A DNA stretch of 64,000 bases from Bosea vaviloviae (GTDB lineage Bacteria > Pseudomonadota > Alphaproteobacteria > Rhizobiales > Beijerinckiaceae), in NCBI RefSeq assembly GCF_001741865.1, contig NZ_CP017147.1:5819001-5883000 (forward strand), given 5' to 3'. Of the stretch, positions 6,554 to 43,513 are shown in pieces. The position numbers were made by a program, and so were the translations under genes. How positions within the stretch are numbered: the stretch's first letter is position 1; each line of letters begins with the position of its first letter. The notes beneath the pieces were generated by a model. The model did no database searches. It saw only the letters and a list, made by a program, of their open reading frames with translations, and was not told the origin of the DNA.

Positions 6554-8419
6554 TCAGGCCGGCGTCGTTTCGGGGTCGGCGGCGGCCAGGAATCCACCCG
6601 ATTGCCGCGACCAGAGTCGGGCATAGAGCCCGCCCCGCGCCACCAGCTCGGCATGGCTGCCGGAATCGACGATCCGGCCCTGATCGAGCACGATCAGACG
6701 GTCGAGCGCGGCGATGGTGGAGAGCCGATGCGCGATCGCGATCACCGTCTTGCCCTGCATCAGGCTGGTCAATTGCTCCTGGATCGTCGCCTCGACCTCC
6801 GAATCGAGCGCCGAGGTCGCCTCGTCCAGGATCAGGATCGGCGCATCCTTGAGCAGCACGCGGGCGATCGCGATGCGCTGACGCTGGCCGCCCGAAAGCT
6901 TGACGCCGCGCTCGCCGACGCGCGATTCAAAGCCCTGGCGGCCGTCCTGATCGCTGAGGCCCTGCACGAAGTCATGGGCCGAGGCGCGCTCGGCCGCAGC
7001 AGTGATCTCGCCTTCCGTCGCCCCGATGCGGCCATAGGCGATGTTGTCGCCGATCGAGCGATGCAGCAGCGAATTGTCCTGCGTCACCATGCCGATCTGC
7101 GCGCGCAGACTGTCCTGGGTCACCAGCGCGATATCCTGGCCGTCGATCAGGACGCGTCCGCCGGCGACCGGATAGAGCCTGAGCAGCAGGTTCACCAGCG
7201 TCGATTTCCCGGCGCCGGAGGGACCCACGAGACCGATGCGTTCGCCCGGCTTGATGTCGAGCGTCAGATCTTCGAAGAGCCCGGCCTGACGGCCATAATT
7301 GAAGCGCACATGATCGAAGCGGATACCGCCCTTGTCGACGACGAGCGGCACGGCGTCGGGCGCGTCGGTCAAATCGTGGGGTTTGGCGATCGTTTCCATG
7401 CTTTCCTGCACGGAGCCGATATTCTCGAAGACGCCGCGCACGAGATGGATCAGCCAGCCCGACATCTGCACCAGCCGCAGCACGAGGCCGATCGCAGCGG
7501 CAACCGCGCCCGGCGTCATCTCGCCATGGCTCCAGAGCCAGAGGCTCAGACCGGCCGTCACCACGACGAGCAAGCTGTTCATCGTCTGCAGGATGACGCT
7601 GACGCCGGTGATCAGGCGCGAGAGATGCAGGAAGGAGGCGTTCCAGCGCGTCAGCGAATCGCGCACCGACGAGCGCTCGGCATCGGCGCGCGCGAACAGC
7701 TTGACGGTGAGGATATTGGTGTAGGCGTCGACGATGCGCCCCGTCGTCGAGGAGCGGCCAAGCGAATTGGCCTCCGAACGCTTCTTCGCGCGCGGCACGA
7801 AATAGATCAGCAGCGCAACATAGGCTCCGAGCCAGGCGACCACCGGCAAGGCGAGCCAGAGGCTGGTCTTGCCAAAGAAGCCGAGAGCCACCGCGACGAA
7901 GATCAACGCGTACCAAAGGTCGTCGATGACTTCGATCGTCGCGCCGCGGATCGACTGCCCGGCCTGGATGACGCGCGCCGAAAGGCGCCCGGCGAAATCG
8001 TTCTGGAAATAGGAGAGCGCGTGACCAAGCGTATAGACATGGTTGCGCCAGCGGATCTGGTTGGTGATCTGCGGCACCACGACCTGGTCGACGATGGCGT
8101 GATTGGCGAAATAGACGATTGGCCGGACGACGACGAGCAGGAAGGCAGCACCAGTCAGAAGCCAGCCATGGTCGCTCCAGATCGTCTGCGGCGACTGCGT
8201 TGCCAGGAGATCGACGAACCAGCCGACCATCAGATACATCATCGCCTCGATGCCGCTGAAGGCGAGCCCCGTCAGCATGATCAGGGCCATCCAGCCCTTC
8301 ACGCCCTTGATGTGGTGCCACATGAAGGGCCACACGCCGCGCGGCGGCGTCTCGCGCTCGTCGAAAGGCGCGAACACATCGATACGGGTTTCGAGATAGC
8401 GGAACAGAGCGGCAAACAT
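6554..8419 (-). CDS. ABC exporter, fused membrane and ATPase domains
   Basis: A 621-residue half-size ABC exporter with six predicted helices in the first 340 residues followed by an ATPase domain. Walker A is GPSGAGKSTL, the signature is LSGGQRQRIAIA and Walker B is ILILDEATSALD; D- and H-loops (IAHRLSTI) are intact. The ATG at 8419 (MFAALFRYLE) is chosen because the longer frame runs back into an intergenic repeat. It should work as a homodimer or with an unlinked partner. The substrate cannot be told from sequence; MsbA-like lipid or drug exporters are the nearest class. Confidence 0.9.
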   Translation of the reverse strand: MFAALFRYLETRIDVFAPFDERETPPRGVWPFMWHHIKGVKGWMALIMLTGLAFSGIEAMMYLMVGWFVDLLATQSPQTIWSDHGWLLTGAAFLLVVVRPIVYFANHAIVDQVVVPQITNQIRWRNHVYTLGHALSYFQNDFAGRLSARVIQAGQSIRGATIEVIDDLWYALIFVAVALGFFGKTSLWLALPVVAWLGAYVALLIYFVPRAKKRSEANSLGRSSTTGRIVDAYTNILTVKLFARADAERSSVRDSLTRWNASFLHLSRLITGVSVILQTMNSLLVVVTAGLSLWLWSHGEMTPGAVAAAIGLVLRLVQMSGWLIHLVRGVFENIGSVQESMETIAKPHDLTDAPDAVPLVVDKGGIRFDHVRFNYGRQAGLFEDLTLDIKPGERIGLVGPSGAGKSTLVNLLLRLYPVAGGRVLIDGQDIALVTQDSLRAQIGMVTQDNSLLHRSIGDNIAYGRIGATEGEITAAAERASAHDFVQGLSDQDGRQGFESRVGERGVKLSGGQRQRIAIARVLLKDAPILILDEATSALDSEVEATIQEQLTSLMQGKTVIAIAHRLSTIAALDRLIVLDQGRIVDSGSHAELVARGGLYARLWSRQSGGFLAAADPETTPA

Positions 8420-8470
8420 AATCGTCTGATTAATCCCGTATATCTTTGAAATTAAGGCATAAACTGTTCT

Positions 8471-8513
8471 AGAGCATCGGCCCGAAAAGTGGGAACCGGT
8501 TTTCGGGAAAAGC
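8471..8513. repeat. Dispersed repeat, family A
   Basis: Copy with core AGAGCATCGGCCCGAAAAG and AACCGGTTTTCGGGAAAAG, in opposite orientation to the copy at 3498. It lies in the leader of the ABC exporter gene. Confidence 0.85.
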
Positions 8514-8573
8514 CAATGCAAGATCAGAGCGCGACAGCATCAGGCCGACGACGATATTCGGTCTGATACCGTA

Positions 8574-8604
8574 GAAAAACACCCGCCCCGAGCATCCCGG
8601 GGCG
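8574..8604 (-). terminator. Rho-independent terminator after the FlbD-like gene
   Basis: Stem CGCCCCG/CGGGGCG (8584-8590 with 8598-8604), followed on the minus strand by GTGTTTTTC. It lies about 105 bases past the stop codon of the small HTH gene. Confidence 0.7.
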
Positions 8605-8709
8605 AGACGATCGATTATGGGCTGAAGCGAGCGGCCAATCACGTCAGGAGCCGTCACTCGACGCCCGCGCGCCACGATTCGCAATGTGTTGTTCGGCAAA
8701 AAGCCCGCT

Positions 8710-8934
8710 CTATTGTGACGCCTGCCCGGCCTCGGGCACGTCATACCCCTCGGACGCATAGGCGCTGAGCCTGTTGCGCAGGGTTCGTATCGATATGCAG
8801 AGCATGTTGGCCGCATGCGTGCGGTTGCCGCCGGTTTCCCGCAGCGTGGCCAGAATCAGCTCACGTTCAACATCGGCAACCGGACGCCCGACGAGATGGT
8901 CCGTGGCGCGCGGATCGGGGTTGAAATCGTGCAT
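8710..8934 (-). CDS. Stand-alone Fis-type HTH protein, FlbD C-terminal-like
   Basis: A 74-residue protein that consists almost only of a Fis-family helix-turn-helix. The stretch LVGRPVADVERELILATL followed by GGNRTHAANMLCISIRTLRN closely resembles the DNA-binding tail of FlbD, the NtrC-type flagellar regulator of Caulobacter. The receiver and AAA+ domains of FlbD are absent, so it cannot activate sigma-54 by itself; it may repress, compete at ftr-like sites or bend DNA. It stands alone with its own terminator. Flagellar and CtrA genes lie 47 kb away in the same window. Confidence 0.85.
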   Translation of the reverse strand: MHDFNPDPRATDHLVGRPVADVERELILATLRETGGNRTHAANMLCISIRTLRNRLSAYASEGYDVPEAGQASQ

Positions 8935-9129
8935 CGCATTGTCCTTCGAGAGCCCCCAGCTCCAACTCCGGAAAGCCGGAGGAGGCCGAGAAAACGGTTA
9001 ATGCTTGGTTAAACCAAGGGGCGCACGGCCCTGGGCCGGGCTTTGCGCCAGGAGCCCGGGGCCCACGCCAAGCGCATCTCCTTTGCGAATCGCCCTGCGC
9101 CTGCTTGACGCCAATCAGGCGGCCAGCCC

Positions 9130-9672
9130 ATGACGGCAGCTATGTTGCGCCTCGCCCTTTACCAGCCCGACATCCCGCAAAATGCCGGCACGATGATCCG
9201 GCTTTGCGCCTGTCTCGGCGTCACCGTCGACATCGTCGAGCCCGCGGCCTTCGACGTCTCCGATCGGCATTTCCGGCGCTCGGGCATGGATTATCTCGAA
9301 CGAGCCGCGATCGCGCGCCATGATTCCTTCGCCGCCTTCGACGCCTGGCGGCGCGCGGCCGGCCACCGCCTGATCCTGGCCGAGACCGACGGCGCGACCG
9401 CACACACCATCTTCGCCTTCAAGCCGGGCGACATCGTCATGGTCGGGCGGGAATCCGCCGGCGTCCTGCCGGAGGTCTATGCGGCGGCCGAGGCGAGCGT
9501 GCATGTGCCGATGCGCTCCGGCTTGCGCTCGCTCAACGTCGCGGTTGCAGCCGCCATCGTTCTGGGCGAAGCCTTGCGCCAAGTCGGCGGGTATCCCGAG
9601 GTTTTACTTGAAGAGCGTGGGGAACCCTCTCCCACCAATCGCGGGCATGCCCGAGATTGGCCGCTAAAGTGA
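9130..9672 (+). CDS. trmL: tRNA (cytidine/uridine-34 2'-O)-methyltransferase
   Basis: A 180-residue SPOUT methyltransferase of the TrmL type, which methylates the wobble ribose of certain leucine tRNAs. Family motifs visible are NAGTMIRLCACLG, the AdoMet-loop region MVGRESAGVLP and RSLNVAVAAAIVLGEALR, which forms the trefoil knot. An internal start at 9142 (MLRLALYQPD) is equally plausible. The last 25 or so residues are translated from a palindromic repeat that extends past the stop codon and are unlikely to be part of the conserved fold. Confidence 0.92.
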   Translation: MTAAMLRLALYQPDIPQNAGTMIRLCACLGVTVDIVEPAAFDVSDRHFRRSGMDYLERAAIARHDSFAAFDAWRRAAGHRLILAETDGATAHTIFAFKPGDIVMVGRESAGVLPEVYAAAEASVHVPMRSGLRSLNVAVAAAIVLGEALRQVGGYPEVLLEERGEPSPTNRGHARDWPLK

Positions 9673-13679: not shown

Positions 13680-14702
<1,023 letters not shown>

Positions 14703-34437: not shown

Positions 34438-35424
34438 CTATTTCTTCTCCGGCTTTGCCGGCGGGTTCGGGTCCTTCGAGAAATTGCGGAAGACCATGTC
34501 GGGCGAGGAGGTGTTGTGGCGCGAATGCGTGGTGCGGCCCATCCAGATATCGGTCGCCTTGCCGCCCGTGAACGGCATCAGCGGCTCCTCGCGCCAGCCC
34601 TTGGCGCCGGGCTCGCGCACCGCGATGCGGGCGACATCATTGTTGAACTCGGTGACATACATCGAGCGCAGCGCCACGAAACCCTTGCCGCCGGTCACCG
34701 GCTTGTCGAGCACCGCGTCCAGCACCATGCGGTTCTCATCGACGCTGTCGAGCTTCAAGCTGCCCGACGAGCCGTCCTTGAAGCTCAGCTTGAAGGTGGT
34801 CGTCTTGGGATCGAACTCGATCTCCTTGATGTTCACGACCGGGCGGCCATCGGTCTCGATCGGCCCGAACAGGAAGGACGAGCCATAGGCTGAAGACGCA
34901 AGCTGCTGCGGCGGCATCGGCCTGGCGCGCCAATAGCCATCCTGCGGATAGACCACGAGCAATTCATGCGAGCGATCCTTGCCGAGCTTCCAGAGCTGGA
35001 CGAGATGCAGGCCCTTTTCGACCCTGTCGCCGACCCGGAAGGTGGTGTCGGCCGGCCGCCAGAAGGTCGGGAAGGTATAGCCGACGAGCCAATAGTCGAT
35101 GCTCTCGTAGAAGGTGACACGCTGGGGCGGCACTGGGGCTGCGAAGGAGGGATCGCCCTTCATCTCGCAATCGGTCCAGTCCGCATCCCAGTTATCCCGC
35201 AAGAGACCTGCGTTATAGGCGGGATGCGCCGCCTCGATCTGGAAGCGCCGCACCTCGGGCGAGATCGCCTTGATGGTGACATTGTCCTTCTCGGCGCAAA
35301 GCACCGGCTCGGACTCGTTCTTGACCTCGACGGCGACATCGCCGGCAGCAAGAGCCGGACAAGCAGCGCAAGCCAAGGCGAGCGGCAGGATCACGGAGCG
35401 CAGGCGGGAGAGAGAGGTCATCAT
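34438..35424 (-). CDS. Secreted hypothetical protein
   Basis: A 328-residue protein with a signal peptide (LRSVILPLALACAACPALAA) and a mature part rich in beta-forming sequence, including paired aromatic motifs YESIDYWLVGYTFPTFWRP. Two adjacent ATGs at 35424 and 35421 are possible starts. It is the last gene of opgH-fkbM-this, 5 bases after fkbM. I do not recognise the family; periplasmic location and company suggest a role in envelope sugar metabolism. No catalytic motif seen. Confidence 0.8.
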   Translation of the reverse strand: MMTSLSRLRSVILPLALACAACPALAAGDVAVEVKNESEPVLCAEKDNVTIKAISPEVRRFQIEAAHPAYNAGLLRDNWDADWTDCEMKGDPSFAAPVPPQRVTFYESIDYWLVGYTFPTFWRPADTTFRVGDRVEKGLHLVQLWKLGKDRSHELLVVYPQDGYWRARPMPPQQLASSAYGSSFLFGPIETDGRPVVNIKEIEFDPKTTTFKLSFKDGSSGSLKLDSVDENRMVLDAVLDKPVTGGKGFVALRSMYVTEFNNDVARIAVREPGAKGWREEPLMPFTGGKATDIWMGRTTHSRHNTSSPDMVFRNFSKDPNPPAKPEKK

Positions 35425-35429
35425 CGATA

Positions 35430-36188
35430 TCAACTCGTCAGCATGGCGTAGACATCGCCGGAATTGGCGGAATGAGGCAGGTCGCGCAGGAAGCCGCCAA
35501 TCGCCTCCGCGCTCGCTGGCTCGGCGAGTTCGAAGCTCTGGCTTTCGCCGAGCGCGACATTGAAACGATAAGGTCCAAGCGTATCCAGCAGTGCGAGGCA
35601 AGCCTCCGCGACGTCGCGCTGGATCGTCGTGAACTCGAAGGAGATCACCGGTACGGCCTTGGTCAGGCCTGCCAGCACATGCGCCTCGAAGCCCTCGACA
35701 TCGATCTTGATCAGCGCCGGCAGGCCATGGCGCCAGATCAGCTTGTCGAGCGTCGTGCAGGGGACCACGATCTCATGGTCCCAGACCTGCCCCTCCCAGC
35801 CACCGGCCCCTTGCGCCGCGCCGACGAAAGCCGGCGAGGCTGTCGAGACCGTTGGATTGGCGCTGTTGATCTGCAGCGTCACCACCCCTTCATTATCGCC
35901 GCAGGCGGCCTCGATCAACGTCACCAGCGGGTCGCGGCCATGGATCAGGCGGATCGCGCGCGCCGGTCCCGGCTGCGGCTCCAGCGCCACGACACGCGCG
36001 CCCAGCCGGCGAAACGAGGAGACCCGGTCCCCGACATGCGCGCCGATATCGAAGGCGAGATCGCCTGGTTTGAGGAAGCGCGCATAAAGCGCGTCCATCG
36101 CGGCATTGCGCACAGGATCACCGTGATAGACCCGCAAGGAGCGCGAAACCGCCTTGGCCATGCCCTTGGGATAGGCAGCTGCGCTCAT
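35430..36188 (-). CDS. FkbM family methyltransferase
   Basis: A 252-residue AdoMet-dependent methyltransferase. Motif I is FDIGAHVGDRVSSFRRLG, the acidic loop is VVALEPQPGPARAI, and the FkbM block LIKIDVEGFEAHVLAGL is intact. FkbM enzymes O-methylate sugars or lipids. Start overlaps opgH by 4 bases (ATGA), a strong sign of a shared pathway; methylation of a periplasmic glucan is a reasonable inference, not shown. Confidence 0.9.
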   Translation of the reverse strand: MSAAAYPKGMAKAVSRSLRVYHGDPVRNAAMDALYARFLKPGDLAFDIGAHVGDRVSSFRRLGARVVALEPQPGPARAIRLIHGRDPLVTLIEAACGDNEGVVTLQINSANPTVSTASPAFVGAAQGAGGWEGQVWDHEIVVPCTTLDKLIWRHGLPALIKIDVEGFEAHVLAGLTKAVPVISFEFTTIQRDVAEACLALLDTLGPYRFNVALGESQSFELAEPASAEAIGGFLRDLPHSANSGDVYAMLTS

Positions 36189-38035
36189 CGCGACGCCTCA
36201 TTCGCGATCGCCGGACGATTCGCGATCGCCAAGAGCTCAACCGGCGGGTCGAAATCCTCGGGGATCCCGCAAAGCCCGCTCTGCGCGAACCATCTTCCTA
36301 GTGCGGGCAAGGCCGTCAGCATGGCGAAGGGGATCGCCAGCACATAGCCCGCGGTCAGCGGCAGCGACCAGAGCAACACGGTCGGCGAGAGCAGCATCAG
36401 CGCGCCGAAGATGTAGAGGCCAAACAGCAGATGCGGCCACAGGCCGGCGAAGGCCGTGGCGAAGGACAAGGCATGCGCATCGCGCGATTGGCCGTTCCAG
36501 CCGATCCTGGCGCGCCCGAAGGCGAGCCCGACCATGAACAGCGTCGTCCGGAAGGTCGAGACCGCGCCTTGCAGGAAGGCGAAGATGATCTCGATCAGCG
36601 CCGAGGCGATGAAGCGCCCGGTGCCGCCATAGCGCCGGGTGCCGCCCCTGGTCAGCAGGATGTCGATGAAGCCTGCGAGCTTCGGCGAGAGATACATCGC
36701 GAAAAACAGCACATAGAGGGAGGCGGCCAGGCCCGAGGGATAGCCCGCAATGCCGGCATCCTCGATGGCCTTCACCGGCAGGAGCGCGATCATCAGCGTC
36801 CAGGCCGGTAACCCCAGGAACATCAGGATCGCCCAGACCAGCTGGAAGCGGCTCATCGGCTTCAAGCCGGGCAGGTCGAGCAATTTGAGATATTGCAGAT
36901 TGCCGAGGCACCAGCGCAGGTCGCGCTTGGCGAATTCGAGCATGGTCGGCGGGTTTTCCTCCCAGCTTCCCATCTCCTGCGGCAAGACGCGAACCTCGTA
37001 GCCGGCGCGGCGCATCAGCGTCGCCTCGACCTGATCATGGCTCATCACCGCCCCACTGAGCGGCCCTTCGCCGGGCAGGACCGGCAGATGGCATTCATCG
37101 CGGAAGGGAGCGATCCGCACCATGGCGTTATGGCCCCAGAACGGACCGCAATCGCCGACCCACCAGGCCGAGCCCATGGTGTAAGGCCGCATGCCCTGGC
37201 GCATGCCGAACTGGAAGATGCGGGCGAAGGCAGACCGGCTCGGCATGCCCACGACCAGGCTTTGCAGGATGCCGAGCTTCGGATGCGCCTGCATCATCCG
37301 CGCCAGCTTCACGATCGCATCGCCGGACATGACGCTGTCGGCGTCGAGCGGCAGCATGACCTCGTAGCGATCACCCCAGCGCTCGCAGAAATCCCTGACA
37401 TTGCCGGCCTTGAAGCCGGCATTGTCGGTGCGGCGGCGATAGGTGAGGCGCGAGGTCGCGCCGATCTCGTTCGCCCATTGCGCCGCAAGCCGGTCTTCCG
37501 CCGCCGCGACAGCGGCATCGCTCGTATCCGACAGAACGAAATAATCGAACCAGGGGCCTTCGCCCGTCGCCTCGACGCTGTCCTTGACCACGCGCAGCCG
37601 GCGGAAGGCGCGTTCGGGATCCTCGTTGCGCAAGGTCATCAGGATGGCGGTGCGGATCGCGATTGGCGTCGCGGCCTCGCCGTCAGCGGCGAAGGGCGCG
37701 ACCTGGTCGAGCCCGTCATCGGCGCCGTGCAGCAGCCAGAGGCCGATCAGCGCGTTCCAGAAACCGAGCACCGTCCAGGGCGCGCCGAACAGGAAGGCAA
37801 TGAGGATGACCACATCCGTCACCGTCCAGCCGCCGGCCCCGAGCACACGCCCGAGCCCCAGCAGCAATGCGCCGAGCGTGACGAGGTTCAGCGCCAGCAC
37901 GAGCCAGCGCCGTGCGCTCAGCGTCGCTGTCGCCTGCACGCCCGCCGGCGTCAGGCCCCGCAGGCTTTCGACCTCTTGCGCCGCCGACTGGAACGTGGTC
38001 GGAGCGGGACGCTGGTTCATGGCGGTCTCTGTCAT
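36185..38035 (-). CDS. opgH: Glucans biosynthesis glucosyltransferase MdoH/OpgH
   Basis: A 616-residue membrane glycosyltransferase of family 2 that builds the beta-1,2 glucan backbone of osmoregulated periplasmic glucans from UDP-glucose. GT-A residues are seen in DYFVLSDTSD, LPLDADSVMSGD, SHDQVEATLMRRAGY and the RW motif KRDLRWCLGN. Helices flank the domain at both ends. The ATG at 38035 is chosen. No opgG or opgD gene is adjacent; instead fkbM and a secreted protein follow. Confidence 0.92.
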   Translation of the reverse strand: MTETAMNQRPAPTTFQSAAQEVESLRGLTPAGVQATATLSARRWLVLALNLVTLGALLLGLGRVLGAGGWTVTDVVILIAFLFGAPWTVLGFWNALIGLWLLHGADDGLDQVAPFAADGEAATPIAIRTAILMTLRNEDPERAFRRLRVVKDSVEATGEGPWFDYFVLSDTSDAAVAAAEDRLAAQWANEIGATSRLTYRRRTDNAGFKAGNVRDFCERWGDRYEVMLPLDADSVMSGDAIVKLARMMQAHPKLGILQSLVVGMPSRSAFARIFQFGMRQGMRPYTMGSAWWVGDCGPFWGHNAMVRIAPFRDECHLPVLPGEGPLSGAVMSHDQVEATLMRRAGYEVRVLPQEMGSWEENPPTMLEFAKRDLRWCLGNLQYLKLLDLPGLKPMSRFQLVWAILMFLGLPAWTLMIALLPVKAIEDAGIAGYPSGLAASLYVLFFAMYLSPKLAGFIDILLTRGGTRRYGGTGRFIASALIEIIFAFLQGAVSTFRTTLFMVGLAFGRARIGWNGQSRDAHALSFATAFAGLWPHLLFGLYIFGALMLLSPTVLLWSLPLTAGYVLAIPFAMLTALPALGRWFAQSGLCGIPEDFDPPVELLAIANRPAIANEASR

Positions 38036-38109
38036 GATATCAGTCGAAAGGCCTGCAGTCGGTAAAGGCTTGCGGTAAAGGCTTGGTCGGGAACAGGGAT
38101 CGGCTCGAT

Positions 38110-39117
38110 ATGGCGAAGGAGCTAAAGCCGGCAACCGTAGCGAGCGCAAGCGCGAAGGCGACCGCTCTCTGGTATATTTCGCCGCGTGAATGCGCCCTGA
38201 ACGCCAGCGCTTTTCCCGAGGCCGGCCCGCAAGATTGTCGCATCCGTATGCTCTGGAGCGGCATCAGTCGCGGCACGGAGCGTCTTGTCCTCGAGGGCCG
38301 TGTGCCGGCCTGCGAATATGAGCGCATGCGTGCCCCCTTCCAGGATGGGGAATTCCCCTTTCCGGTGAAGTACGGCTACTGCGCAGTGGGCCAGGTGGAT
38401 GCAGGCCCGCCCCGCATGCAAGGCAAGACCGTCTTCTGCCTGCATCCGCATCAGGACCATTTCACCGCGCCCAGCGACCGACTGACGATCGTGCCCGAGA
38501 ATGTGCCGGCGCGCCGGGCCGTGCTGACGGCCAATATGGAAACCGCGCTCAACGCACATTGGGATGCGGGCTCCGGCCCCGGTGACAGGATCGTCGTGGT
38601 CGGCGGCGGCGTACTCGGCCTCCTCGTCGCATGGCTGGCGGCCCGGCTGCCGGGCGCACAGGTGACGCTGGTCGATATCGATGCCGGCCGCGCCGCGCTT
38701 GCCGCCACCCTCGGCTTCGGCTTTGCGCTTCCAGCGGATGCGCCTGTCGACGCCGATCTCGTCTTTCATGCCAGCGGCTCGGGCGCGGGGCTGGCGACTG
38801 CGATCAATGCCGCCGGCTTCGAGGCCCGCATCGTCGAATTGAGCTGGTATGGCGAGGGCGCCGTCCCCGTTTCGCTGGGCGGCGCATTTCATTCCAAACG
38901 CCTGCAATTGATCTCGTCGCAGGTCGGACAGGTCGCGCCTTCGCGCCGTCCCCGCTGGAGTTATGCGCGCCGCAGCCAGGCTGCGATAGCGCTTCTCGCT
39001 GACGATCGCTTGGATGCGCTGATCACGCAGGAGATCGCTTTCGCGGATGCCCCGGCGCTGCTTCCAGGCGTCCTTGCCTCGGATTGGCCGGGGCTGACTG
39101 CCGTACTGCGCTATTGA
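38110..39117 (+). CDS. Zinc-free MDR dehydrogenase-like protein
   Basis: A 335-residue medium-chain dehydrogenase/reductase family protein. The nucleotide site VVVGGGVLGLLVAWLAARLPG followed by D in TLVDIDAG suggests NAD. The usual catalytic zinc cysteine is replaced in MLWSGISRGTERLVL, and no structural zinc Cys cluster is seen, so it is a zinc-independent member similar to BchC or other cluster-bound MDRs. The ATG at 38110 is preferred. It is followed by a PTPS-like, a glycosyltransferase and a methyltransferase gene, all in one direction. Confidence 0.85.
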   Translation: MAKELKPATVASASAKATALWYISPRECALNASAFPEAGPQDCRIRMLWSGISRGTERLVLEGRVPACEYERMRAPFQDGEFPFPVKYGYCAVGQVDAGPPRMQGKTVFCLHPHQDHFTAPSDRLTIVPENVPARRAVLTANMETALNAHWDAGSGPGDRIVVVGGGVLGLLVAWLAARLPGAQVTLVDIDAGRAALAATLGFGFALPADAPVDADLVFHASGSGAGLATAINAAGFEARIVELSWYGEGAVPVSLGGAFHSKRLQLISSQVGQVAPSRRPRWSYARRSQAAIALLADDRLDALITQEIAFADAPALLPGVLASDWPGLTAVLRY

Positions 39118-39188
39118 CCTGACGCTACGGCTTTGGCCAAGACAGGCCCGTCATCCGGTCTAGTCGCCGGCCTGCAGGAGCCGCACCC

Positions 39189-39590
39189 ATGTTTTCCGTC
39201 GAAGTCCGCGACCGCATCATGATCGGCCATTCGCTGCCCGATCCGTTCTTCGGCCCGGCCCGAAACATGCACGGCGCGACCTTCATCGTGGATGTCGCCT
39301 TCTTCCGCGAGAGACTGACGCGGCACAATGTCGTCGTCGACATCGGAGCCGCGCTCGAAGTGCTGAACAGGACGCTGAAGCCGCTGAACTACCAGAACCT
39401 CGACGCGCTGCCGCAATTCGCAGGCGTGCTGACCACGACCGAATTCCTCTGCAAGCACATCTTCGACGCGATGGCGCAGGCAGCCGCATCCGGCGCGCTC
39501 GGCGAGGACGGCGCCGGTCTTTCCCGCATCAAGGTGACGCTGCACGAGACCGATCTGGCGCGAGCGAGCTATGAGGGCATGCTCGCGTGA
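39189..39590 (+). CDS. PTPS/QueD-like protein with altered active site
   Basis: A 133-residue T-fold protein of the 6-pyruvoyltetrahydropterin synthase / QueD family. Zinc histidines remain in MIGHSL and MHGAT, but the HGH signature is HGA. The usual cysteine four residues before it is alanine (ARNMHGA), and the DH pair before the LN block reads LKPLNYQNL. Glutamate in LHETDLA is kept. So the common cysteine, histidine and aspartate of the synthases are missing, and a normal pterin synthase activity is doubtful. Downstream GTG overlap (4 bases) couples it to the glycosyltransferase. Confidence 0.82.
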   Translation: MFSVEVRDRIMIGHSLPDPFFGPARNMHGATFIVDVAFFRERLTRHNVVVDIGAALEVLNRTLKPLNYQNLDALPQFAGVLTTTEFLCKHIFDAMAQAAASGALGEDGAGLSRIKVTLHETDLARASYEGMLA

Positions 39591-40636
39591 GCGGCATCGT
39601 CCTCGCCGTCCCCGGCGACATCGACCTGCCGACCGGCGGCTATGGCTATGATCGCCGGCTGCTCGCCGAATGGCGCGAAATGGGCATCGCAGCGCGCCAC
39701 CTCGCTCTCCCCTCCTCCTTTCCGGACCCGACGCCTGGCGACCTCGCCGAGACCGGGCGGTTGATCCTGTCGCAGCCCTTCGATGTTGCCCTGCTGATAG
39801 ACGGCCTGGCCTATGGCGCCTTCCCCGAAAGCATCGCGGCGGGCCTCGCCGGCCGCGTCGTCGCGCTCGTCCATCACCCGCTCGGGCTGGAGACCGGGCT
39901 CAGTCCGGAGCGGGCGCGCGCGCTGCTGGCGCGCGAAGCGGCCGCCTTGCGTCACGCCAGCGCCGTCATAGCAACCAGCCCGACAACGAAACGCATCCTG
40001 GTCGCGGATTTCGGCCTCGCCGAGGACAGGATCACTGTCGCGCTCCCCGGCGTCGATCGCGCGTCCCGCGCGCGCGGCAGCTCCGGCGGCAGCCCGCTTG
40101 CCCTGCTCGCCGTCGGCTCGCTCGTCCCGCGCAAGGGCTACGACGTGCTCATCTCCGCCCTGGCCAGCCTCAAGGACCGGAACTGGCGGCTGACGATCAT
40201 CGGCGCGTCGGACCGCGCCCCCGATACGACCCGCGCACTCCAAGCCCAGATCGAAGCGGCCGGACTTGAGGGGCAAATCTTGCTGGCCGGAGCCGTGAGC
40301 GAAAATATCCTGGCCGAGGCCTATGATAAAGCTGACCTTTTCGTCATGCCGTCCCTGTTCGAGGGCTACGGCATGGTGCTGACCGAGGCGCTGGCGCGCG
40401 CGCTGCCGATCCTGTGCACGACAGGCGGGGCAGCCGCCGAGACCGCGCCGAATGCTGCCGCGCTCAAGGTTCCGCCCGGCGATATCGCTGCCTTCGCTGA
40501 GATGCTAGGCAAGCTCATCGACGACCGCGCGCTTCGCGAAGGCATGGCGAATGCGGCCTGGGCCGCGGCGGGTGATTTGCCGCGCTGGCGCGACACCGCG
40601 ACGATCGTCGCGCAAACCTGCCGGAAGGTGATGTGA
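39587..40636 (+). CDS. Glycosyltransferase family 4
   Basis: A 349-residue GT-B glycosyltransferase. The C-terminal donor domain shows LLAVGSLVPRKGYDVLISAL and the EX7E-type block MPSLFEGYGMVLTEALA. It begins with a GTG at 39587 that overlaps the PTPS-like stop. N-terminal part has IPGDIDLPTGGYGYDRRLL-like acceptor loop. No signal or membrane segment, so a cytosolic enzyme that would glycosylate a soluble product. The acceptor may be the product of its neighbours; this is inference. Confidence 0.9.
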   Translation: MSGIVLAVPGDIDLPTGGYGYDRRLLAEWREMGIAARHLALPSSFPDPTPGDLAETGRLILSQPFDVALLIDGLAYGAFPESIAAGLAGRVVALVHHPLGLETGLSPERARALLAREAAALRHASAVIATSPTTKRILVADFGLAEDRITVALPGVDRASRARGSSGGSPLALLAVGSLVPRKGYDVLISALASLKDRNWRLTIIGASDRAPDTTRALQAQIEAAGLEGQILLAGAVSENILAEAYDKADLFVMPSLFEGYGMVLTEALARALPILCTTGGAAAETAPNAAALKVPPGDIAAFAEMLGKLIDDRALREGMANAAWAAAGDLPRWRDTATIVAQTCRKVM

Positions 40637-41478
40637 TGGGCGGTTTCTCCCCCGAATGGCTGGCGTTGCGCGAGCCCGCCGACCATGCGGCGCGCAATCC
40701 GGAGCTGCTCGCGGCCGTCGGCGCGTATTTTACGCCCAAGACCTCGATTTCGATCGTCGATCTCGGCTGCGGCGCCGGCTCCAATCTGCGCGGCGCCTTC
40801 TCCGCCTTGCCCGGGCGTCAACACTGGACGCTGGTGGATTTCGACCAGCGTCTGCTCGACGCCGCGCGTGAAACGCTCCGCCTCTGGGCCGATGAGGCGC
40901 GCGAACAAGGCGAGGAGCTCGTCCTCGCCAAGGACGGCAAGTCGATCACGGTCGATTTCCGCCAGGCCGACCTGATGAAGGACCTGGAATGGGTTCTCGG
41001 CTGGCAGCCCGATCTCGTCACCGCCGCCGCCCTGTTCGACTTGACCTCGAAACGCTGGATCGAGCGCTTCGTCGCCGCGCTCGCGAGCCAGCGCCTGCCG
41101 CTCTACACCGTGCTGACCTATGACGGGCGCGAGAAATGGCAGCCGCCCCACGAGGCCGACGCCAGGATGCTCGCCGCCTTCACGCATCACCAGCACTCCG
41201 ACAAGGGTTTCGGCCCGGCGGCCGGCCCTGACGCCACGGAGATCATGGCGGAAGCCTTTCGCAAATCGGGCTTCGCGGTCTCAACCGGCGACAGCGCCTG
41301 GACCATCGATGTGGGGCAGCGCGACCTTGCCAAGGCCCTGACGCGAGGCATCGCCGATGCCGTTCTGGAGACCGGCCATGTCGAGGCCGACGCGGTCGCG
41401 GACTGGCTCGGCGCCCGCGCGACGGAGGCGGCTTCCGGCCTGATCGGGCACTACGATCTCTGGGCGCGGCCCGTCTGA
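40636..41478 (+). CDS. Class I SAM-dependent methyltransferase
   Basis: A 280-residue methyltransferase. Motif I is IVDLGCGAGSNLRGAFSAL and the acidic loop is TLVDFDQRLLDAAR; later motifs DLVTAAALFDLTSKRW and YTVLTYDGREKW fit. The ATG at 40636 overlaps the stop of the glycosyltransferase (TGATG); a GTG one codon earlier is also possible. Last gene of the four-gene plus-strand set, which ends at a dispersed repeat. The substrate is unknown. Confidence 0.88.
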   Translation: MGGFSPEWLALREPADHAARNPELLAAVGAYFTPKTSISIVDLGCGAGSNLRGAFSALPGRQHWTLVDFDQRLLDAARETLRLWADEAREQGEELVLAKDGKSITVDFRQADLMKDLEWVLGWQPDLVTAAALFDLTSKRWIERFVAALASQRLPLYTVLTYDGREKWQPPHEADARMLAAFTHHQHSDKGFGPAAGPDATEIMAEAFRKSGFAVSTGDSAWTIDVGQRDLAKALTRGIADAVLETGHVEADAVADWLGARATEAASGLIGHYDLWARPV

Positions 41479-41496
41479 AACCTGCTACGGCTTCTT

Positions 41497-41533
41497 CCGA
41501 AAACCGGATTCCACTTTTCGGGCCGATGGCTCT
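41497..41533. repeat. Dispersed repeat, family A
   Basis: Copy with CCGAAAACCGGATT and CACTTTTCGGGCCGATG, same orientation as that at 3498. It lies between the convergent methyltransferase and cytochrome b561 genes and overlaps the last codon of the latter. Confidence 0.8.
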
Positions 41534-42116
41534 ACCGCAACCCAGGCAGCATCCGGCGCAGGACCCCGTCCTTGCGGATCAGATGGTGGTAGAGCGCCGC
41601 CGCGATATGCGCACCGACGAGCAACGCCGTCAGGATGGCGAGTTTGCCATGGATGCTCAGCACCTGCTCCGCCAGCGGCTGGTTGGGCGCCGCCAGTCGC
41701 GGCAGGTCGAACAGGCCGAAGAGCGTCAGCGACGGATAGAGCGAGACGCCGGTCCAGCCGAGCAGCGGTACGATCAGCAGCAGCCCATAAAGCAGCCAGT
41801 GCACCAGATGCGAAGCCGCCTTCTGCCACCAGAGCAGACTGGGCTCGTCAGGCGGAGCGCCACGCAGCAGCCGGTAGGCAAGCCGCCCGGCAACGAGCCA
41901 GATCAGCAGGAAGCCGATCAGCTTATGCGCGCTGAACAGGGTATCGGTCAGCCCGTCCCAGATATCCAGCGTATTGCCGCGATAGGTCATGGCGAAACCG
42001 AGCGGCAGCATGACCAGCACGGCCGCGGCCGTAGCCCAATGGAAATGGCGCGCGGCTGCACTATATGTGGGCGGTGGCGCAGCCCTGGTCGCGAACGGGT
42101 CGTGATCTTGCGTCAT
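41532..42116 (-). CDS. Cytochrome b561 family protein
   Basis: A 194-residue four-helix di-haem cytochrome. Histidines suited to haem ligation lie in ARHFHWATAA, FSAHKLIGF, ASHLVHWLL and LSIHGKLAIL. The ATG at 42116 (MTQDHD) is preferred over a longer frame. Bacterial members move electrons from ubiquinol, often in oxidative stress (superoxide oxidase CybB type). It interrupts the plus-strand set between the methyltransferase and ribA; the 269 bases upstream of it hold no gene. Confidence 0.88.
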   Translation of the reverse strand: MTQDHDPFATRAAPPPTYSAAARHFHWATAAAVLVMLPLGFAMTYRGNTLDIWDGLTDTLFSAHKLIGFLLIWLVAGRLAYRLLRGAPPDEPSLLWWQKAASHLVHWLLYGLLLIVPLLGWTGVSLYPSLTLFGLFDLPRLAAPNQPLAEQVLSIHGKLAILTALLVGAHIAAALYHHLIRKDGVLRRMLPGLR

Positions 42117-42385
42117 GCAACTCTCCAGGCCGGGTCGATGCCTTCGCATTCATCTCATGTTCAACGTCGCAACCCTATACGCAACGTCATTGGCGACGTC
42201 ATGGCCAACGTCATGGGATTGGGTGGCTGCGGGGTCGGGCGAGGAGACAATTCCGGCGGCGGGAACCCCATCGCGGCCGGCACGTTTGGCGATACGGCCA
42301 TGCGGTCGCATCCATATCGACCTTTCGACCGTAGAAGCTACACTCCACTGCCGACCACCGGCGCAATCTGACGGATACAATCCCG

Positions 42386-43513
42386 ATGCCCAAGTCGCGT
42401 ACGCTCTTCGGACGCCCGCATGAGACGAGCCTGGTGGCCGTCGACCGCGCGATCTCGGAATTCCGCGCCGGCCGCCCCGTGCTGCTGCGCGCCGGCGAGC
42501 GCCTGGCCTTGGCCCTCTCCGCCGAACTTGCCGACGCCGTGCTGGTCCAGCGCCTCGACGAGCTTGCGAAGGGCCATGCCCATCTCGTCCTGAGCGCCGC
42601 GCGGCTACGCCGCCTGGGGGCGAAAGGCCGTAGTGAAACCGGCGTGCTCGCGATACCCCGGATCGATCTGAGCCGCATCGAGACGCTCGCCCTCAAGACC
42701 GACGGCAAGGTCGATGCGCCCGTCGCTCCCGCGTCCGATGTCGACAATGTCGCGCTCGAGCTCGCCCGGCTGGCGCTTGTGCTGCCGGCCGTCATCCTCG
42801 TGCCGGTCAGCGCCGAGGCCGTTTCGGGCGAGCCGTTGATCGAGGTTTCGATCGAGGCCGTGAACGCCTATCGCGCGGCGCAGGCTGCCTCGCTGACCAT
42901 CGTCGGCCGCGCGCCCGTGCCGCTGGAGGGCGCACCCGAAACCGAATTCGTCGTGTTCCGCGGTGGCGAAGGCCTGCGCGACCAGGTCGCGATCATCGTC
43001 GGCAAGCCCGACCTGTCCGAAGCGGTCCCTGTGCGGCTGCATTCGGCCTGCCTGACCGGCGACTTGTTCGGCTCGCTGAAATGCGATTGCGGCGACCAGC
43101 TCCGCGAAACCGTCCAGTGGATGGCGCAGAACGATGGCGGCATCCTGCTCTATCTCGACCAGGAGGGCCGTGGGAACGGCATCTCCAACAAGATGCGCGC
43201 CTACAAGCTGCAGAGCCAGGGCTGGGACACCTATGACGCCGACGAGGTCCTCGGCTTCGACCTCGACCAGCGCCATTACGATTTCGCGGCGACGATGCTG
43301 AAGCAGCTCGGCGTGACCCGGGTCACCGCCCTGACCAACAACCCGCTCAAGGTCGGCGCCATCAAGGCGGCGGGGCTTGTGGTCGCAGCGACCCAGCGTG
43401 TGCTCGGCCGCCCCAATATCCACAATGTTCGCTATCTCGCCTCCAAGCGCGATCGTGCCGGCCACATCATCGACATGGACGCGCTGATGGCGCGGGCCGC
43501 GCCGAAGGATTGA
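42386..43513 (+). CDS. ribA: GTP cyclohydrolase II with N-terminal RibB-like domain
   Basis: A 375-residue protein. The C-terminal half is RibA: zinc cysteines in SACLTGDLFGSLKCDCGD, the nucleophile-activating block YLDQEGRGNGISNKMRAY and the TNNPLKVGAIKAAG loop. It opens GTP to 2,5-diamino-6-ribosylamino-4-pyrimidinone phosphate, the first riboflavin step. The front half (about 170 residues) resembles RibB but lacks its acidic and histidine active-site motifs. Starts at 42386; 31 bases before the YfhO-like gene. Confidence 0.92.
   Translation: MPKSRTLFGRPHETSLVAVDRAISEFRAGRPVLLRAGERLALALSAELADAVLVQRLDELAKGHAHLVLSAARLRRLGAKGRSETGVLAIPRIDLSRIETLALKTDGKVDAPVAPASDVDNVALELARLALVLPAVILVPVSAEAVSGEPLIEVSIEAVNAYRAAQAASLTIVGRAPVPLEGAPETEFVVFRGGEGLRDQVAIIVGKPDLSEAVPVRLHSACLTGDLFGSLKCDCGDQLRETVQWMAQNDGGILLYLDQEGRGNGISNKMRAYKLQSQGWDTYDADEVLGFDLDQRHYDFAATMLKQLGVTRVTALTNNPLKVGAIKAAGLVVAATQRVLGRPNIHNVRYLASKRDRAGHIIDMDALMARAAPKD

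Follow-up and report, generated by a model that had tools for sequence, protein, structure and literature searches.

Results

The stretch analysed here (the window) comprises 64,000 nucleotides of the Bosea vaviloviae genome, which measures about 6.7 Mb (contig NZ_CP017147.1, positions 5,819,001 to 5,883,000). It holds a block of four genes for a dehydrogenase, a protein of the PTPS superfamily, a glycosyltransferase and a methyltransferase, which form a conserved unit well beyond Bosea. Bit scores below are followed by the cut-off of the model concerned.

38110-39117, plus strand: MDR-type dehydrogenase, distantly BchC-like; zinc-ligand domain not detected
39189-39590, plus strand: PTPS-IV protein with a T-fold (Pfam PTPS, 73.5 bits; cut-off 22.4)
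39587-40636, plus strand: GT4-family glycosyltransferase (Pfam Glycos_transf_1, 105.8 bits; cut-off 26.4)
40633-41478, plus strand: class I S-adenosylmethionine-dependent methyltransferase (Pfam Methyltransf_25, 28.1 bits; cut-off 27.0)
41532-42149, minus strand: cytochrome b561 (Pfam b561, 94.9 bits; cut-off 30.1), a recurrent neighbour, not core
42386-43513, plus strand: GTP cyclohydrolase II, RibA (GTP_cyclohydro2, 155.7 bits, cut-off 23.3; NF006456, 498 bits, cut-off 464)

The original prediction had placed four genes on the same strand, three of them with overlaps, and a GTP cyclohydrolase II gene 0.9 kb further on. These coordinates and families were reproduced, the overlapping genes being the last three. 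The PTPS-like and glycosyltransferase genes share 4 bases, the glycosyltransferase and methyltransferase genes overlap by 4 bases with a GTG start or by 1 base with an ATG start at 40636, and a gap of 71 bases separates the dehydrogenase gene from the PTPS-like gene. The dehydrogenase had been called zinc-free, in agreement with the absence of the ADH N-terminal (zinc-ligand) domain from its Pfam matches. It falls under every Pfam cut-off (ADH_zinc_N, 27.1 of the 31.8 bits needed) and does not qualify as BchC (TIGR01202, 46.1 bits; 291 needed). The methyltransferase is matched neither by an NCBIfam model nor, at E 0.01, by a PDB sequence, and the glycosyltransferase matches PDB entries weakly, Tll1590 being the top one at 59 bits. 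By the Pfam PTPS model, no second PTPS-family gene is present in the host genome.

Judged by its residues, the PTPS-like protein is of the PTPS-IV type and not QueD. It combines the T-fold and anchoring Glu of the PTPS superfamily with the PTPS-IV signature, which reads FGPAR in the window protein and, among 134 relatives, FGPAQ in 131, FGPAR in 2 (L058 and L085) and FGPAX in 1. All 134 relatives carry HGA instead of HGH. Throughout 55 aligned rows, the position of QueD Cys27 is occupied by Phe and that of His33 by Ala, and Glu120 (Glu110 in QueD) is invariant. The CxxxHGH motif of QueD (PTPS-I, queuosine synthesis), with its catalytic Cys and three zinc His, is replaced accordingly, and the same HGA change sets the protein apart from PTPS-II (biopterin) and PTPS-III (folate), for which PMC5041015 gives the motifs CxxxxxHGH and ExxHGH. 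Public records label this PTPS-IV protein as 6-carboxytetrahydropterin synthase (QueD), but its residues argue otherwise, and against the QueD model TIGR03367 it scores 29 bits where 89 are needed. A queuosine role was set aside on the altered residues, no search having been aimed at Que genes beside the block. The predicted structure of the window protein (pLDDT, a predicted local confidence score, 95.7) matches the fold of SCO6650 from Streptomyces coelicolor (PDB 3D7J), its closest solved relative at 54% identity. In T-fold enzymes the anchoring Glu recognises the 2-amino-4-oxo edge of the ring, and PTPS-IV proteins are predicted to bind a pterin through the kept Glu120. Five genomes (G462, G567, G573, G583 and G744) encode a second, distant PTPS protein in addition to PTPS-IV.

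Every one of the 25 genomes in the genus sample, which includes that of the window, has the PTPS-like gene; it was found in a single one of the 16 genomes taken from elsewhere in the order, and in 52 of the 387 genomes of the class sample. The last figure becomes 51 once G086 is removed, a weak match whose locus (L084) gives no match to the PTPS-IV profile. Neighbours were counted as families within 8 kb of the PTPS-IV gene in a set of 47 loci from 25 families, from which the window's genome and genus, G086, G066, G239, G257 and G373 were left out and to which G028 was added; some of these loci end at contig ends. The strict order dehydrogenase, PTPS-IV, glycosyltransferase, methyltransferase is kept at 39 of the 47. 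A dehydrogenase is present at 46 (25 families), a GT4 enzyme at 46 (25 families) and a methyltransferase at 41 (23 families), and at 44 the dehydrogenase gene lies immediately 5' of the PTPS-IV gene on the same strand. By comparison, 20 control loci drawn from weak PTPS matches (18 with PTPS-IV profile scores of 22.5-43.1 bits, 2 without; two end at 14 kb) gave one dehydrogenase match (20.6 bits) and one GT4 match (46.9 bits), and not a single methyltransferase, RibD_C, RibA, CDP-alcohol transferase, creatininase, b561 or OpgH match. The four genes are thus a conserved unit and not a chance association; their failure to occur together outside the genus would have counted against the original prediction, and the order kept across these families shows that this is not the case.

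The unit extends to other lineages and to plasmids. Among the best 80 of 589 confirmed stretches, a set that leans to relatives of Bosea (7 Bosea or Boseaceae records, several short contigs), the strict order is kept in 53, and a dehydrogenase occurs in 72, GT4 in 71, methyltransferase in 76, RibD_C in 46 and RibA in 35. Their genera include Hyphomicrobium, Ancylobacter, Xanthobacter, Paracoccus, Rhizobium, Martelella and Azospirillum, and Xanthomonas sp. AmX2 and Pseudohaliea rubra are represented as well. Strong PTPS-IV matches were also obtained in 13 genomes from two families of a different class within the phylum; 11 of the loci were read, and all 11 carry the dehydrogenase, GT4, methyltransferase and a CDP-alcohol transferase, with RibD_C at 10, creatininase at 5 and RibA at 4. 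On plasmids, 21 records match PTPS-IV (the last at 31%), of which 7 were inspected. The four-gene order is found on plasmids of Streptomyces fungicidicus, where a creatininase-family gene and then GTP cyclohydrolase II follow, and of Microbacterium, Agrobacterium and Thiodictyon. A Rhodobacteraceae plasmid has dehydrogenase, PTPS-IV, methyltransferase and RibD_C genes, and an Arthrobacter record the dehydrogenase, PTPS-IV and GT4 with no methyltransferase match. Phages gave no PTPS-IV match.

The commonest extra neighbour, which has no counterpart in the window and which proved the strongest additional partner, is a RibD_C-type reductase of about 270 residues, present at 37 of the 47 loci and in 22 of the 25 families. 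Its gene mostly lies on the opposite strand after the methyltransferase gene, and in line with the block in other lineages. The partners at L064, L092, L101 and L228, scanned as whole proteins with Pfam, match RibD_C and no deaminase domain, so that the 2-amino group of a substrate would be retained. At least two RibD_C genes occur in 49 of the 51 PTPS-IV genomes versus 62 of 336 without PTPS-IV (Fisher 1.8e-28, kinship ignored), counts that take in all RibD_C genes and not just the module type; the 49 take in the genome of the window, though its second RibD_C gene is a short DHFR-like one and not of the module type. A 761-residue open frame in G176, considered as a RibD_C-dehydrogenase fusion, was dismissed since the two sit in different frames.

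RibA lies within 8 kb at 18 of the 47 loci, in 13 of the 25 families, where a chance rate of 1.6% per locus was assumed. Five loci (L147, L163, L185, L188 and L224; three from Paracoccus, one from Palleronia) have RibA, dehydrogenase, PTPS-IV and methyltransferase in line, followed by RibD_C. Co-occurrence of GTP cyclohydrolase II with the block, which had been suggested from the window, is therefore recurrent. At L163 (Paracoccus sp. PAMC 22219), the methyltransferase match at 8357-9168 spans two frames, a possible frameshift.

The window RibA (L193) keeps the zinc Cys 54, 65 and 67 and the catalytic residues checked, Tyr105, Asp126 and Arg128 (E. coli numbering). It is the sole strong intact GTP cyclohydrolase II of its genome: the host RibBA (L194, G000:C1:5972250-5972687) lacks the zinc Cys, and a third GTP cyclohydrolase II-like protein is divergent (61 bits). 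Given the loss of the zinc Cys in RibBA-type proteins, a separate RibA must supply this activity, and the window RibA, being the only strong intact one, probably feeds riboflavin synthesis too and is probably common to that pathway and the module. A RibA-domain protein without the zinc Cys was also seen in 11 of 12 relatives (L268-L279), most of these proteins being RibB-like by a crude motif test. Like the Bosea protein, 64 of 67 block-linked RibA proteins have Tyr at position 105, and that of S. fungicidicus has Met. The GTP cyclohydrolase SCO6655 of S. coelicolor, which with SCO6650 is among the closest known systems, reportedly has the same change and does not go beyond the formylated product. 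The idea that a creatininase-family deformylase is needed where RibA loses Tyr105 fits S. fungicidicus only, and was dropped because the Tyr is retained at each of the 10 proteobacterial loci that have RibA together with a creatininase.

Discussion

The block has partial precedents. The neighbourhood of FGPAQ proteins described in PMC5445326 (AGeNNT, 2017) contains PF00925 (GTP cyclohydrolase II, labelled 'FolE2' there) and PF01872 (RibD_C), so that the signature and these two partners are shared with the module; the passage in question names no dehydrogenase, GT4, methyltransferase, creatininase or CDP-alcohol transferase. Since the link between FGPAQ proteins and the two families is already in print, the PTPS-IV module is an orphan pathway of partly known membership and not a categorically new system. 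The full-text literature matches listed contain no functional study of the PTPS-IV family, which is treated in PMC5445326 and PMC5041015. A further parallel lies in the early archaeal riboflavin and F420 steps of ArfC and ArfB, in that a RibD_C-type reductase and a creatininase-family protein (9 of 47 loci, 6 of 25 families) also accompany the block; two creatininase proteins were scanned, and both are best matched by MftE, one reaching ArfB weakly (31 of 180 bits) and the other not.

We consider it about an even call that the block is the core of a widespread, partly plasmid-borne biosynthetic unit that would make a glycosylated, methylated pterin- or pyrimidine-type metabolite. What can be read directly are the enzyme families, their order, the kept and changed residues and the linkage to RibD_C and RibA; the reactions are our proposal. 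RibA would open GTP to 2,5-diamino-6-ribosylamino-4-pyrimidinone 5'-phosphate, and the RibD_C-type reductase, where present, would convert the ribosyl to a ribityl side chain and, having no deaminase domain, leave the 2-amino group in place. The product of these two steps is consistent with the kept T-fold Glu. In Bosea, the reductase step may be missing or carried out by the bifunctional RibD. PTPS-IV could then grip the 2-amino-4-oxo ring by Glu120 and bring about ring closure or a side-chain change, presumably not the PTPS or QueD reaction; the dehydrogenase would oxidise or reduce a side-chain alcohol, GT4 would attach a sugar and the methyltransferase a methyl group. A glycosylated, methylated pterin or pyrimidine derived from GTP had been proposed originally, and the conserved unit and the recurrence of RibA keep it the best reading. 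The argument from the PTPS substrate fails, however: action on dihydroneopterin triphosphate is not transferable to a protein whose catalytic Cys is Phe and one of whose zinc His is Ala. More speculatively, and on balance improbably, the module might lead from GTP to a pterin-type ring by a second natural path that does not pass through GTP cyclohydrolase I: RibA would open the ring of GTP, and a T-fold protein devoid of the PTPS zinc site and triad would close another. The resulting methylated glycoside, to which the CDP-alcohol transferase might link a lipid, would then be used by bacteria ranging from those with 1.4-Mb genomes to Streptomyces.

Several observations weigh against this interpretation. 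A Streptomyces anthocyanicus plasmid (L227) carries PTPS-IV with no partner gene at all, GT4 is absent between PTPS-IV and the methyltransferase in 15 loci, where the latter directly follows the former, and distance correlation fails to split the core genes (0.66-0.75) from the bystander OpgH (0.77). The window likewise lacks the reductase, as do all 14 Bosea-type loci examined, and no module-type stand-alone RibD_C was found in the Bosea genome, where the best match is the bifunctional RibD (35%) and the other a 210-residue frame; at 10 of the 47 loci, some truncated by contig ends, there is no RibD_C within 8 kb. As for RibA, it is within reach of the block at just 18 of the 47 loci and at 9 of 14 Bosea-type loci, not being near in the other 5. 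Of the 18 RibA-linked genomes, 12 were tested, and 9 have no other strong intact copy, a second one being present in 3 (G175, G363 and G053). The position of RibA may thus reflect riboflavin synthesis alone and is by itself no proof of a role in the module. Its role is argued instead from recurrence in 13 of 25 families and from the rows in which RibA, dehydrogenase, PTPS-IV, methyltransferase and RibD_C stand in line. The window ribA is not obviously dedicated to the module, and the original prediction had cautioned that it may be unrelated. The b561 gene, which had been thought to separate ribA from the set, does not break it: b561 itself recurs near the block, at 12 of 47 loci and in 8 of 25 families.

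A different kind of product is conceivable. The block might make or decorate a lipid- or glycan-linked envelope molecule, with GT4 working alongside a CDP-alcohol phosphatidyltransferase, an LPG_synthase_TM flippase-like protein and a sulfatase-fold transferase, and RibA and RibD_C as mere neighbours. The CDP-alcohol transferase at 16 of 47 loci (10 of 25 families) and at every locus read in the other class, the LPG_synthase_TM protein that accompanies it in Agrobacterium and Microbacterium, and OpgH at 12 of 47 loci (9 of 25 families) point this way, as do the lipid- and lipopolysaccharide-acting enzymes among the weak PDB matches of GT4, though Tll1590 is the best of these. We nevertheless regard it as unlikely, since the pterin-anchoring Glu is kept in every PTPS-IV row and none of the membrane genes counted is linked as strongly as RibD_C (22 of 25 families). 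Were the product a pterin attached to a lipid, this and the pterin reading would both hold. Flavin chemistry is a weaker candidate: RibA and RibD_C are riboflavin-type families, and the quartet could act late in that pathway, modifying a flavin or a lumazine. Flavins have no 2-amino ring, however, the kind that the kept Glu suits, and RibB, RibE and RibH are not among the identified neighbour families, although no search was aimed at them. We accordingly hold this to be improbable.

Cyanobacterial pterin glycosides start from the GTP cyclohydrolase I route. The module may add sugar and methyl groups to pterins of that ordinary route, such as monapterin, RibA and RibD_C being present through regulation or history. 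In favour of this, the PTPS fold binds pterins, and the review of bacterial pterins in PMC13259868 deals with bacterial glycosylated pterins and a proposed 2'-O-methylmonapterin. The cyanobacterial biopterin glucosyltransferase covered there, a glycosyltransferase acting on a pterin, offers a functional analogy for GT4; the review has no match to '6-pyruvoyl' or to 'GTP cyclohydrolase II'. FolE, FolX and FolM are not among the neighbour families identified, although not all neighbours were identified and no search was aimed at these three, and we judge this route rather unlikely. Service in coenzyme F420 synthesis appears most improbable. An unpublished remark on archaeal PTPS-IV is cited to this effect in PMC5041015, and two genomes from a single genus have CofD at a distance of 6.2 kb from PTPS-IV (G248:C10:8785-9681 and G317:C132:11365-12261); yet CofD is encoded in just 10 of 51 PTPS-IV genomes and not in that of the window (G000), and on these counts F420 was rejected as a general role.

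With a conserved gene set, a crystallised partner (3D7J) and a candidate substrate at hand, the orphan metabolite is directly testable, and study of the module would reveal the function of a T-fold protein whose zinc site and catalytic triad are altered. That genomes of 1.4-1.6 Mb (G175, G256 and G325) retain the block suggests a useful product.

Other genes near the block

Upstream of the block lie further genes on the minus strand:

36185-38059, minus strand: OpgH/MdoH-type glucosyltransferase (NF003963, 920.6 bits; cut-off 884), divergent from the block; a recurrent neighbour, not core
34438-36188, minus strand: FkbM methyltransferase gene and a gene without Pfam match, 3' of OpgH

The name 'OpgG' for 34438-35418 (minus strand) was a guessed label that no Pfam family backs, and was discarded. 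Two other genera (L092 and L093) also have the trio of OpgH, FkbM and the gene without Pfam match next to the block. A scan of ten more neighbour families gave transporters, a sugar kinase, an acyltransferase, a protein with a TIM barrel and a response regulator, with two giving no match. On the S. anthocyanicus plasmid L227, the PTPS-IV gene (14001-14426) adjoins a gene for a MEKHLA-domain protein. At L064, L067 and L069, the whole block is found together with RibD_C, RibA and creatininase in genomes of 1.4-1.6 Mb. On the Agrobacterium plasmid L228 (4205-7705), a sulfatase-annotated protein, an LPG_synthase_TM flippase-like protein and a CDP-alcohol transferase are encoded beside RibA, a trio that hints at a membrane step.

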